Shown piece by piece: positions 23,986 to 26,317 of a DNA stretch of 61,351 nt. Position 1 is the stretch's first letter. Each line of letters starts with the position of its first letter. A model generated the notes under the pieces. It saw only the letters and a list, made by a program, of their open reading frames with translations. It did not search any database and was not told the DNA's origin. A program made the position numbers and the translations under genes. The DNA comes from Candidatus Eiseniibacteriota bacterium (lineage in GTDB: Bacteria > Eisenbacteria > RBG-16-71-46), in assembly GCA_016223045.1 (NCBI GenBank), contig JACRPT010000152.1, positions 1 through 61,351 of the forward strand. Reading direction: 5' to 3'.

Positions 23986-24675
23986 ATGACCCCGGCCGAG
24001 ACCACGATCCTCATCCTGCTCGGCGCGGGCGCGGCGGCCTGGCTGATGCGCGCGTTCTCCGGCGGACGCGACGAGCAGGTCACGTCGGAGGGTAGGGCGC
24101 GCGCGGCGGGGCCCGGCGAGCAGGAGCTGGCCGAGGCCGCGGCGGCCGAGACGCTGGCCGTGACGTCCGAGGGCTGGGCGTTCCTGCCCGACGGCGACGC
24201 GGTGCACCTGATCCCGCCGGGCGATCCGGAGGAGACGTGGCCGGTGCCCGCCGGGCACGAGGCCGGCCTGGAGCCGGGGACCAATCCCGAGACCCAGGCT
24301 CTCGGCGGGCGCGGCGCTCCGGTGAATCCGAAGACCGGGCGGCGGGTGCCGGGATGGATGCCGGGCGAGCACCTGGTCGCCGGCGACCTCATCGCCGCGC
24401 GCGTGGTGCGCGGCGCCCCGGACCACGACCAGTGGCGGCTCGAGGCGCTGGGGCGCGACCGCGACTACCGGGCGTGGCGCTTCGAGACCGAGGAGGCCGC
24501 GCGCACCGCGCTCGCCCTGCTCAGCAGCCGCATCGTGCGCGCGCCGCGCGACCAGGACGGCGATGCCGTGCAGGTGGTCGCTGCCGACTTCGCCGATGCG
24601 CAGCGCGAAGCGGAGGAGATCGAGCGCGAGCTGGCGACCGAGGCCGGGGAGAGCGGCGAGGACGACCCGCGGTGA
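23986..24675 (+). CDS. Membrane-anchored protein of unknown function
   Basis: A 229-residue protein not recognised. One N-terminal membrane helix (TILILLGAGAAAWLMRAF, residues ~6-23) is followed by an acidic, Ala/Glu-rich hydrophilic region. A central segment is rich in Pro and Gly (NPKTGRRVPGWMPGEHLVAG), and EEIERELATEAGE is a charged C-terminal helix. It lies between the two mutase subunit genes and overlaps the next methyltransferase start by GTGA, so it belongs to that operon. No catalytic motif was seen. Confidence 0.65.
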   Translation: MTPAETTILILLGAGAAAWLMRAFSGGRDEQVTSEGRARAAGPGEQELAEAAAAETLAVTSEGWAFLPDGDAVHLIPPGDPEETWPVPAGHEAGLEPGTNPETQALGGRGAPVNPKTGRRVPGWMPGEHLVAGDLIAARVVRGAPDHDQWRLEALGRDRDYRAWRFETEEAARTALALLSSRIVRAPRDQDGDAVQVVAADFADAQREAEEIERELATEAGESGEDDPR

Positions 24676-25349
24676 GCTTCGACTTCGAGGCGCGCTTCTT
24701 CCAGCGCATGCTGGCCGGGCGCCCGAGCCCGGCGCGGCGCGTGCTGGTCGTGGGCTGCGGTGACGGCAGCGAGGTGGCGCACATCGCGGGCGCGACCGGC
24801 GCGACCACGATCGGACTGGACCTCGGCGTGGACGCGCGCGCCAGGCGGCCCGGCATCCACCTGCTCCGTGCTGACGCGCGTCGCCTGCCGTTCCGCGACG
24901 GCACGTTCGACGCGCTCTACTGCTACCACGTGCTCGAGCACGTGCCGGGACCACAGCATGCGGTCGCGGAATCGCGCCGGGTGCTCGCCTCCAGCGGCAT
25001 GGGCTTCTTCGGCACGCCCAACCGGTCGCGGCTGGCCGGCTACCTGGGCGGACGCGCGACCACTTGGGAGAAGGTGAAGTGGAACCTCGCCGACTGGGGC
25101 AAGCGCTTCGCCGGCCGCTGGTCGAACGAGCAGGGGGCGCACGCCGGCTTCACCGGCCGCGAGCTGGCGCGGCTGGCGGCCGGGGTGTTCGCGCGGGTGG
25201 AGAGCGTCAGCCTGCCGTACTATGTCGCCAAGTATCCGAAGCTCGGGGCCTTCGTGAGGGCCTCGTTCAGGCTCGGCCTGGCCGGGTTCCTCATGCCGTC
25301 GGTGTACGTGCGCGCCACGGTCGAGGACACGGCGTCGGGCCATCGCTAG
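24672..25349 (+). CDS. Class I SAM-dependent methyltransferase
   Basis: A 225-residue methyltransferase: motif I VLVVGCGDGSEVAHIAG, an acidic strand-2 end GLDLGVD, LPFRDGTFDALYCYHVLEHV and FFGTPNRSRLAGY. The HVLEHVPGP form matches ubiquinone/sugar-type Methyltransf_11. The start is GTG 24672, overlapping the upstream gene. The TAG stop is part of the left CTAG end of the repeat element at 25346, so insertion of that element may have defined or trimmed the C-terminus. Confidence 0.82.
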   Translation: MSFDFEARFFQRMLAGRPSPARRVLVVGCGDGSEVAHIAGATGATTIGLDLGVDARARRPGIHLLRADARRLPFRDGTFDALYCYHVLEHVPGPQHAVAESRRVLASSGMGFFGTPNRSRLAGYLGGRATTWEKVKWNLADWGKRFAGRWSNEQGAHAGFTGRELARLAAGVFARVESVSLPYYVAKYPKLGAFVRASFRLGLAGFLMPSVYVRATVEDTASGHR

Positions 25350-25549
25350 CCCGGACTATTCATGAACCGCCAGCCGAGAGTGCGAGATGCCTGTCAGCCG
25401 CCAGCAGCTCGACCGGCCGCGACGGAGTCGTGTTGTCAACACGTCGCGGGGCACCCACGCGAGGCGTGGGTCGCGGCCGGTCGAACGACGCCGCGGATGG
25501 CGGGCAGATCGCGCTCGCAGGCGGCGGGCTCATGAATAGTCCGGGCTAG
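25346..25549. mobile_element. MITE-like element with nested inverted repeats
   Basis: Two perfect 20-bp inverted arms (25346-25365 and 25530-25549, outer core CTAGCCCGGACTATTCATGA) bound 204 bp with no coding capacity. CTAG at both outer ends may be a 4-bp target duplication; this is ambiguous because CTAG is a palindrome. Inside are a second perfect 15-bp inverted pair (25409-25423 with 25470-25484), a CCCACGC-GAG-GCGTGGG hairpin (25454-25470) and a GTGTTG-T-CAACAC palindrome (25430-25442), giving a cloverleaf-like fold. No transposase or second copy is visible here. Confidence 0.75.
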
Positions 25550-25570: not shown

Positions 25571-26317
25571 ATGCAGCGAAAGATCCGTGTGCTGGTGGGC
25601 AAGCCGGGGCTGGACGGGCACGACCGCGGCGCCAAGGTCGTGGCGGCCGCGCTGCGCGACGCGGGCATGGAGGTGATCTACACCGGCCTGCACCAGACGC
25701 CGGAGCAGATCGTGGAGGCTGCGCTCCAGGAGGACGTGGACGTGGTGGCGCTCTCCATCCTGTCGGGCGCGCACATGAGGCTGTTCCCCGAGGTGCTCGA
25801 GCTGATGCGGCGTCGCGGAGTCGGCGACCGGCTGCTGACGGGCGGCGGCATCATCCCGCCCGAGGACGTGGAGACGCTCGCGAAGCTCGGGGTGGGCCGG
25901 CTGTTCGGTCCGGGCTCCTCGACCCAGGACATCGCCCGCTACATCCGCGAGTGGTTCGTGGGCGTGCATGGCGAGGACTCGCTGGCGCCCATGCCCGTCC
26001 AGCCCGCGGGCGCGCAGACCGACCTGTTCGAGGGTCCGATGCCGTTGCCAAGCCCGTCGCCCGCGCCCGTGAAGCCCGACGCGCACCACGCGCGCGCCGC
26101 GCGGCGCACCGCCGCGCGCCGGGCGAAGCAGGCCGTGAAGAAGCGAGCGCCCGCCCGCACCGCGCGGACCGCGAAAGCGGTGAAGCGTGCGAAGCCGGCG
26201 CCGCGGACCGCGAAGCGGACCTCGAAGCAGAAGCCGCCGGCCCGCGCCGCGAAGCCGCCGAAACGCGCCAGGCCGAAGGCGAGGCGTCCCGCGAAGCGCG
26301 CGGCGCGCCGGCGCTGA
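25571..26317 (+). CDS. B12-binding mutase small subunit with histone-H1-like tail
   Basis: A 248-residue protein. Residues 1-~135 are a complete cobalamin-binding domain: [17 protein letters not shown] with the D-x-H-x-x-G motif (His17 as lower axial Co ligand), [30 protein letters not shown] and [13 protein letters not shown]. It should pair with the ICM-type catalytic subunit at 22060. After a short linker, residues ~165-248 are almost entirely Lys, Arg, Ala and Pro (for example [20 protein letters not shown]), like an H1 or AlgP-type nucleic-acid-binding tail, which the family normally lacks. GGAGA four bases upstream supports ATG 25571. Confidence 0.92.

Follow-up and report, generated by a model that had tools for sequence, protein, structure and literature searches.

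MITEs are usually viewed as internal deletions of an insertion sequence. The Correia/NEMIS MITEs of Neisseria resemble the element described here in being about 100–200 bp long, having inverted ends, lying near genes, and giving a stable stem-loop transcript, and their transcripts are cut by RNase III, according to the accessible parts of two papers (PMC10969869, PMC2229807). However, they use TA as target rather than CTAG/YTAR, which rules out membership of that group, their sequence is unrelated, and the same parts mention no comparable core shared across phyla. ERIC/IRU sequences of enterobacteria are likewise stem-loop repeats dispersed between genes and co-transcribed, but they have other ends and another target, and, as far as the accessible text goes, ERIC comes from E. 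coli and other enterobacteria, whereas the present core comes from several phyla (PMC2229807). GTAG- and CGTC-tagged REPs are palindromic and often downstream of genes, and CGTC REPs occur in several phyla; unlike the present element, which spans 31–214 bp (mostly 175–196 bp) and has terminal repeats and a target duplication, REPs are 20–40 bp long and tagged at one end (PMC3733652, accessible parts). The GTAG-tagged REP/RAYT system was rejected on account of the CCCGG-type termini and the 196-bp body of the element.

Insertion sequences of the IS1380 family (PF13701, NF033539) share with the element CCCG..TATTCATGA-like termini, a YTAR target, and a 4-bp duplication, but the element lacks a transposase, and its interior shows no relationship to that of the insertion sequences. 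IS1380 does not appear in the accessible parts of a review of prokaryotic MITEs (PMC10969869); four papers mention IS1380 without, in the parts available, any such MITE (PMC3281130, PMC4133298, PMC9330008, PMC3542288), and the available parts of three others hold nothing bearing on an IS1380-linked MITE or on the core (PMC3055811, PMC4853749, PMC12542641). A search of the full-text literature, subscription papers excluded, gave no paper on either subject among the matches listed.

Results

The window, i.e. the whole stretch of DNA analysed here, comprises 61,351 nucleotides of a Candidatus Eiseniibacteriota contig (JACRPT010000152.1). At positions 25346–25549 it carries an element that begins with CTAG and CCCGGACTATTCATGA (25346–25365) and ends with their reverse complement (25530–25549), the match being perfect at 20 of 20 positions and the inverted arms reaching 30 nt at 87%. 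An earlier note on this DNA had described a MITE with 20-bp terminal repeats that include CTAG. The perfect match stands, but CTAG is the duplicated target, which leaves an inverted repeat of 16 bp. Specifically, the element body of 196 bp (25350–25545) consists of the left terminal inverted repeat CCCGGACTATTCATGA (25350–25365, + strand), which recurs in the genome and matches IS1380-family ends, a structured core (25366–25529), and the right terminal inverted repeat (25530–25545, − strand), the mirror of the left one. The body is flanked by the left target duplication CTAG (25346–25349, + strand) and the right target duplication CTAG (25546–25549, + strand), the latter read from the sequence.

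The core comprises 145 model positions plus a nested hairpin and matches the core model with 90.6 bits; its polar strand, termed A, is the + strand in the window, the same as that of the genes. All of its parts named below lie on the + strand. The inner stem is a perfect 15-bp pair of TCGACCGGCCGCGAC (25409–25423) with GTCGCGGCCGGTCGA (25470–25484), of which other copies carry compensatory variants. The central hairpin CGTGTTGTCAACACG (25429–25443) is helix 4 of the core alignment, in which 97.4% of cells are paired, while the nested extra hairpin ACCCACGCGAGGCGTGGGT (25453–25471) accounts for a window copy of 196 bp instead of about 176 bp. The inner pair, the two hairpins, and the branched RNA fold that the earlier note had proposed are thus real features of the element, whose fold has an energy of −86.4 kcal/mol as DNA (z = −11.1; 0 of 200 shuffles equally stable) and −137.5 kcal/mol as RNA.

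The element lies between a class I methyltransferase gene (24672–25349, + strand; start inferred from the overlap with the preceding ORF), which has the same neighbour in five relatives, and a gene identified by family match as the B12-binding (C-terminal domain) subunit of methylmalonyl-CoA mutase (25571–26317, + strand). Upstream of both genes are meaB and the mutase large subunit; matches to the MeaB, methylmalonyl-CoA mutase, and B12-binding families bear out the assignment to a B12 mutase locus. The TAG at 25347–25349 is the stop codon of the methyltransferase gene. The element had been said to supply this stop, which is nominally correct; however, an empty site with one CTAG yields the same stop. 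As CTAG is the target duplication, the stop belongs to the target and predates the insertion.

A separate, tiny palindromic repeat resembling GGGGCACCCACCGNNGGTGGGTCCGGG coincides with window positions 25453–25471. Exact matches to its 17-base core occur 10 times in the host genome, 119 times in G019, and 3 times in G004; sites are on host contigs C8, C49, C52, C69, C86, C127, C140, C153, and C163, in G004, and in G019 (L438–L457). Variants are nested at four different MITE loops, giving the 195- and 214-bp length classes, and the repeat is also found within gene-like DNA, where, read by eye, it apparently encodes GAPT(E/G)GGSG in frame.

The host genome (G000; 3.88 Mb in 164 contigs) contains seven full-length copies at 81–100% identity to the 204-bp query, together with diverged or partial ones, and 19 core-model matches. 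With up to two mismatches, the end sequence occurs 27 times in this genome, compared with 0 for a reversed-pattern control. With up to one mismatch, it is present in 17 of 59 genomes searched, at between 1 place (e.g. G002) and 195 (G019), and G019 has 391 occurrences at up to two mismatches. The 66 distinct copies first collected fall into lengths of 175–179 bp (35 copies), 194–196 bp (16), 214 bp (2), and 31–117 bp (13).

A later set comprises 120 copies from 14 Eisenbacteria genomes, counted as one copy per locus, so that a few duplicates of the same place between loci are possible. Both ends are kept (at least 11 of 16 positions) in 113 of these copies. Exact 4-bp direct repeats flank 57 of the 120 (CTAG in 51, CTAA in 2, TTAG in 2, ATAG in 1, and TTAA in 1), an exact target duplication is absent in 63, and two copies have inverted-looking flanks, TTAG/CTAA and CTGG/CCAG, the latter plausibly a decayed CTAG. 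Because CTAG is palindromic, the non-palindromic flanks decide, and these are direct in five cases and inverted-looking in two. The direct non-palindromic flanks, in particular TTAG/TTAG and CTAA/CTAA, rule out CTAG as part of the inverted repeat, leaving a 4-bp duplication as target and an inverted repeat of 16 bp.

Very short derivatives of 31–78 bp (L065:1501-1539, L066:1501-1561, L275:759-789, L124:1504-1581) are nearly end-to-end inverted repeats, some of them flanked by CTAG. In a further genome, G031, six contigs (C1, C10, C13, C63, C98, and C114) break off within a few bases inside the terminal repeat; this assembly is probably interrupted by a multi-copy element that has such ends. 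The core was not found in G031 by the core-model search.

Empty sites were sought in 20 family genomes, the host included. In each of the five relatives with matches to both the methyltransferase and the B12 gene at a single place (G002, G004, G013, G016, and G018), the two genes adjoin without the element, across a gap of about 12–20 nt, and the methyltransferase gene of G018 has a TAG stop at the corresponding point. A second case is a G019 copy (L244:6147-6323), whose flanks are closer together by 181 bases in G013 and G016, precisely the length of the element with one copy of the target, by 160 in G001, and by 193 in G018. At the junction, G001 reads AGTCTAACGGAGC and G016 reads AGTGTAGCGGAGC, compared with AGTCTAGCGAAGC for the joined flanks. 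Since intergenic DNA aligns poorly elsewhere, this copy counts two clear empty sites, in two species, and two consistent cases. The earlier note had held that its MITE reading would fail if the element were found only once and were fixed in orthologous loci. Neither is the case: the search of the genome and its relatives for the end and for full-length copies returned many, and the five relatives have the same gene pair without the element. Copy number in the host, inverted ends, 4-bp direct repeats, and empty sites all support the identification as a MITE.

The earlier note had further expected the terminal sequence to identify the parent transposon, and it led to IS1380-family insertion sequences with CTAG/TTAG targets. 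The element has the IS1380-type features of ends beginning with CC and a 4-bp duplication of a YTAR target. We took the CC ends to be IS1380-like, a lead that IS1380 searches then confirmed, and a YTAR target is presumably also a pointer to IS5-like ends. IS1380-type transposases (PF13701) are matched in 16 of 47 Eisenbacteria genomes, and the element is present in 11 of these 16 compared with 9 of the 31 without such a match (Fisher p = 0.013). In four Eisenbacteria genomes, five IS1380 loci have termini made up of CTAG and a CCCG..TATTCATGA-like repeat. The transposase of G001 belongs to the IS1380 equivalog NF033539 (350 bits; cut-off 180), and its use as a query found 150 loci, of which 80 named ones were kept and 51 of these scanned for ends by script. 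Many of the 51 have ends such as CCCGGATTATTCACGA with duplicated CTAG, TTAG, ATAG, or CTAA; the remainder of the 51 gave no convincing ends. The complete genome of the Planctomycetes Poly30 (CP036434) contains three IS1380 copies of 1708 bp with CTAG and CCCGGAtTATTCAcGA-like ends, and a Vicinamibacterales MAG has an IS1380-family element with CTAG/TTAG/ATAG targets and CCCGGAtTATTCAcGA-like ends.

The strongest link is the identity of ends in G001, where the IS1380 end CCCGACCTATTCATGA is identical to 13 of the 19 MITE ends read. Furthermore, 18 of the 19 contain CCCGACCT, the exception being L335; at the same position the MITE ends of most other genomes, which are mostly CCCGGACTATTCATGA-like, carry other triplets, most often CCCGGACT. 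Only the 3′ end of the G001 IS copy is assembled, the contig end cutting it. Counting against the link, G006 has the same IS end as G001 yet different local MITE ends, and the assembled IS1380 ends of G019 differ from the local MITE ends. The host assembly contains no complete IS1380 element with the exact ends of the window copy, the nearest being a decayed 3′ IS1380 remnant on contig C91 (CTAG followed by CCTGCTTCGCTCGTGA). The IS1380-type elements on host contigs C26 and C39 (L138, L149) carry a different 22-bp inverted repeat, CCCGGATTTCGCARGGGTGAGC, and were excluded as parents by their different ends.

The core is not derived from the IS1380 interior by deletion either: no significant core-model match lies inside IS1380 elements, and the significant matches in IS1380 loci are separate flanking copies. 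Since the interiors of IS and MITE are unrelated, the element is not a plain deletion derivative. We read it as a MITE moved by an IS1380-family transposase, with a core independent of the IS interior, and assign this reading a probability of roughly 0.9.

In copies of different genera the stem sequences differ yet still pair. Among 32 aligned copies, both sides have changed in 44 of 56 predicted pairs. The same holds for 37 of 40 pairs in 28 interiors without ends, in which 92.5% of cells are paired, compared with 69.1% after shuffling and 28–42% with slid partners. Between family f1 and families f9/f10, agreement is 0.41 at paired columns and 0.56 at unpaired ones. Several loop columns are invariant, and there is almost no variation in the asymmetric internal loops, in which GA or AA faces GCA, while the surrounding stems vary; the invariant purine loops are GCAAGG, CCGNAGGCGTAC...GTACGTCGAGGA, and AACGCAG. 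The A strand of the interior folds better as RNA in 53 of 53 copies, by a mean of 13.3 kcal/mol compared with 2.5 for shuffled interiors, and 79% of unpaired core bases are purines on one strand. The copies are related, so neither the polarity nor the covariation counts are independent observations. G-U and A-C at common pairs number 24 and 17, but which pairs are chosen is determined by the strand that is folded, so the case for strand polarity is made by folding energy and loop composition. The interior is a conserved, strand-polar folded core and not a shrunken IS.

Pairing of this kind could also be kept by mutation bias, the arms of a palindrome correcting each other through template switching in replication, in which case covariation would say nothing about function. 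The terminal repeats do change in concert, and the two ends of one copy are closer (1.39 mismatches) than after reshuffling of ends between the copies of a genome (2.41, sd 0.09). However, such correction would erase the nearly invariant asymmetric loops, and it runs against the purine bias of unpaired bases on one strand and the better folding of that strand in every interior. Arm-to-arm correction could yield part of the covariation, not the nearly invariant asymmetric loops, and as an account of the core we consider it unlikely without being able to dismiss it.

In Rfam 15, the window segment 24900–26000 has no match at E ≤ 1, none of 20 cross-phylum loci has a match over the element, and five Eisenbacteria loci gave only sub-threshold microRNA-like matches over the element, in one of the five. 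The core appears unreported so far, a statement that rests only on the literature searched and Rfam 15.

A covariance model of the interior alone (R1) matches 20 of 47 Eisenbacteria genomes and 7 of 25 other genomes chosen for holding IS1380 relatives, namely the Acidobacteria genome Zod_Metabat.240 (34 matches, best 95.9 bits), three Nitrospira MAGs, one Deltaproteobacterium, one Thermoanaerobaculia MAG, and G079, where the match is weak (E 0.0086). The same core is found with several kinds of ends. In Zod_Metabat.240, the Acidobacteria MAG G064 (L462, L469, L473, and L481) it occurs with three terminal repeats, CCCGCTTTATTCATGAA, CCCGGATTATTCATGAA, and CCCGCATTTCTCACAGG. In Poly30, core elements with a long unrelated inverted repeat, GGAGTCTGCGCCACAG, lie beside IS1380 copies (L179:4040-4200 and L180:2018-2310), at least one of them sharing a CTAG with an IS1380 element; these copies came from the IS loci, and none was returned by the search of the whole Poly30 genome, in which the first look was looser. 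The ends of Nitrospira copies L463, L470, and L476, GGAG(T/C)CTGTCCGA, are similar to the Poly30 repeat, while some Nitrospira and Deltaproteobacteria copies have no recognisable transposon end.

Across 35 cross-group sequences, both sides have changed in 40 of 40 pairs, and 89.3% of cells are paired compared with 56.5% after shuffling and 27–44% with slid partners; the alignment, having been fitted to the model, is biased in its favour, and 4 of 40 loci were omitted because the antisense strand also matched. A model rebuilt from it (R2; E ≤ 1e-5, with few candidates scored per genome and rough E-values) matches 62 of 385 genomes, 20 of 47 in Eisenbacteria and 42 of 338 elsewhere in Bacteria. 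The spread over phyla is known only from named carriers, Acidobacteria, Nitrospira, Deltaproteobacteria, and Planctomycetes among them. Sixteen copies from 15 R2-positive genomes share this core, and clear inverted ends are seen in about half of them. In Nitrospira SJ521, a core copy (L484:1501-1644) lies immediately 5′ of the tmRNA gene and shares its strand. Searches of plasmid and phage collections with two cross-phylum core copies (two plasmid queries, one phage query) gave no match.

CTAG occurs 16 times in the window, compared with 157 predicted from base composition. In 46 of 109 copies with enough flank, the stop of a coding-like ORF falls exactly in the target duplication, compared with 7 of 34 other CTAG sites in the same DNA (p 0.026). 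Gene calls relied on codon-position GC instead of a trained gene finder, and this method missed the methyltransferase gene of the window itself. At such stops, 24 copies are in sense and 24 in antisense orientation (24 and 25 before duplicate removal). A role of the sense strand in the 3′UTR, suggested by a first small count made by hand (11 vs 3), was rejected since the larger count did not uphold it. Target choice and survival thus account for the stop codon in the window; providing it is not a function of the element.

These counts bear on the proposal that the element is a fixed, cis-acting regulatory RNA of the B12 mutase operon that controls the small subunit. Its place in the transcribed gap of the operon, its polar strand sense, the very stable RNA fold, and the strong covariation would all suit such an RNA. 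However, the element is absent from the same gene pair in all five relatives, copies are dispersed at many unrelated places, and the lack of orientation bias leaves a cis-regulatory role unsupported; we judge it highly improbable. We give scarcely more than nominal credence to a REP/ERIC-type palindromic repeat spread by another enzyme (e.g. a RAYT tyrosine transposase) with an accidental likeness to IS1380 ends, for, while small, highly palindromic, gene-end-associated repeats are known (accessible parts of PMC3733652, PMC2229807), the 4-bp duplication, the YTAR target, the IS1380-type ends with an exact match in G001, and the lack of a GTAG tag at the termini all oppose it.

Discussion

For a MITE mobilised by IS1380, the proposed course is as follows. 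An IS1380-family transposase would recognise the 16-bp ends in trans and insert the element at CTAG or a close variant, duplicating the 4-bp target. Surviving insertions would cluster at gene ends because CTAG is rare in a GC-rich genome and is often part of a TAG stop. The window copy would have entered the CTAG that ends the methyltransferase gene of a tight operon, with the result that the stop was preserved and the B12-subunit gene is now preceded by a very stable hairpin of about 200 nt. The core would have diversified by compensatory changes, flanked in distantly related bacteria by terminal repeats of several kinds. Trans-mobilisation by an IS1380 transposase is inferred and is the best-supported step, not a demonstrated one.

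By inference, the core works for the element and not for the gene beside it, acting either as an RNA or in the form of a single folded DNA strand; this is the reading we favour, without a direct test. As the core is preserved for its fold, it is probably used, in propagation, as RNA or as a folded single strand. For the operon, the likely side effect is a structured spacer of 200 nt between stop and ribosome-binding site, which may uncouple translation or make a target for RNase III. A wider proposal, to which we give even odds, is that the element represents a domain-wide, undescribed family of mobile structured elements with one strand-polar fold, which swaps terminal repeats between transposon systems and acts in its own propagation.

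The ends of these MITEs follow IS1380-type transposases, and the interior is an independent fold kept by compensatory mutation across phyla. The window illustrates how insertions are guided by a rare target motif to stop codons, at which they do little damage. The family would explain a repeat of high copy number at which assemblies of uncultured bacteria break up, and Rfam-style annotation would gain an additional family, with carriers making up about one in eight of the 338 other bacterial genomes sampled. Whether a functional structure is part of some MITEs, and with what role, thereby becomes a testable question. If the proposal is true, MITEs of this kind are vehicles for a functional fold, not insertion-sequence debris.
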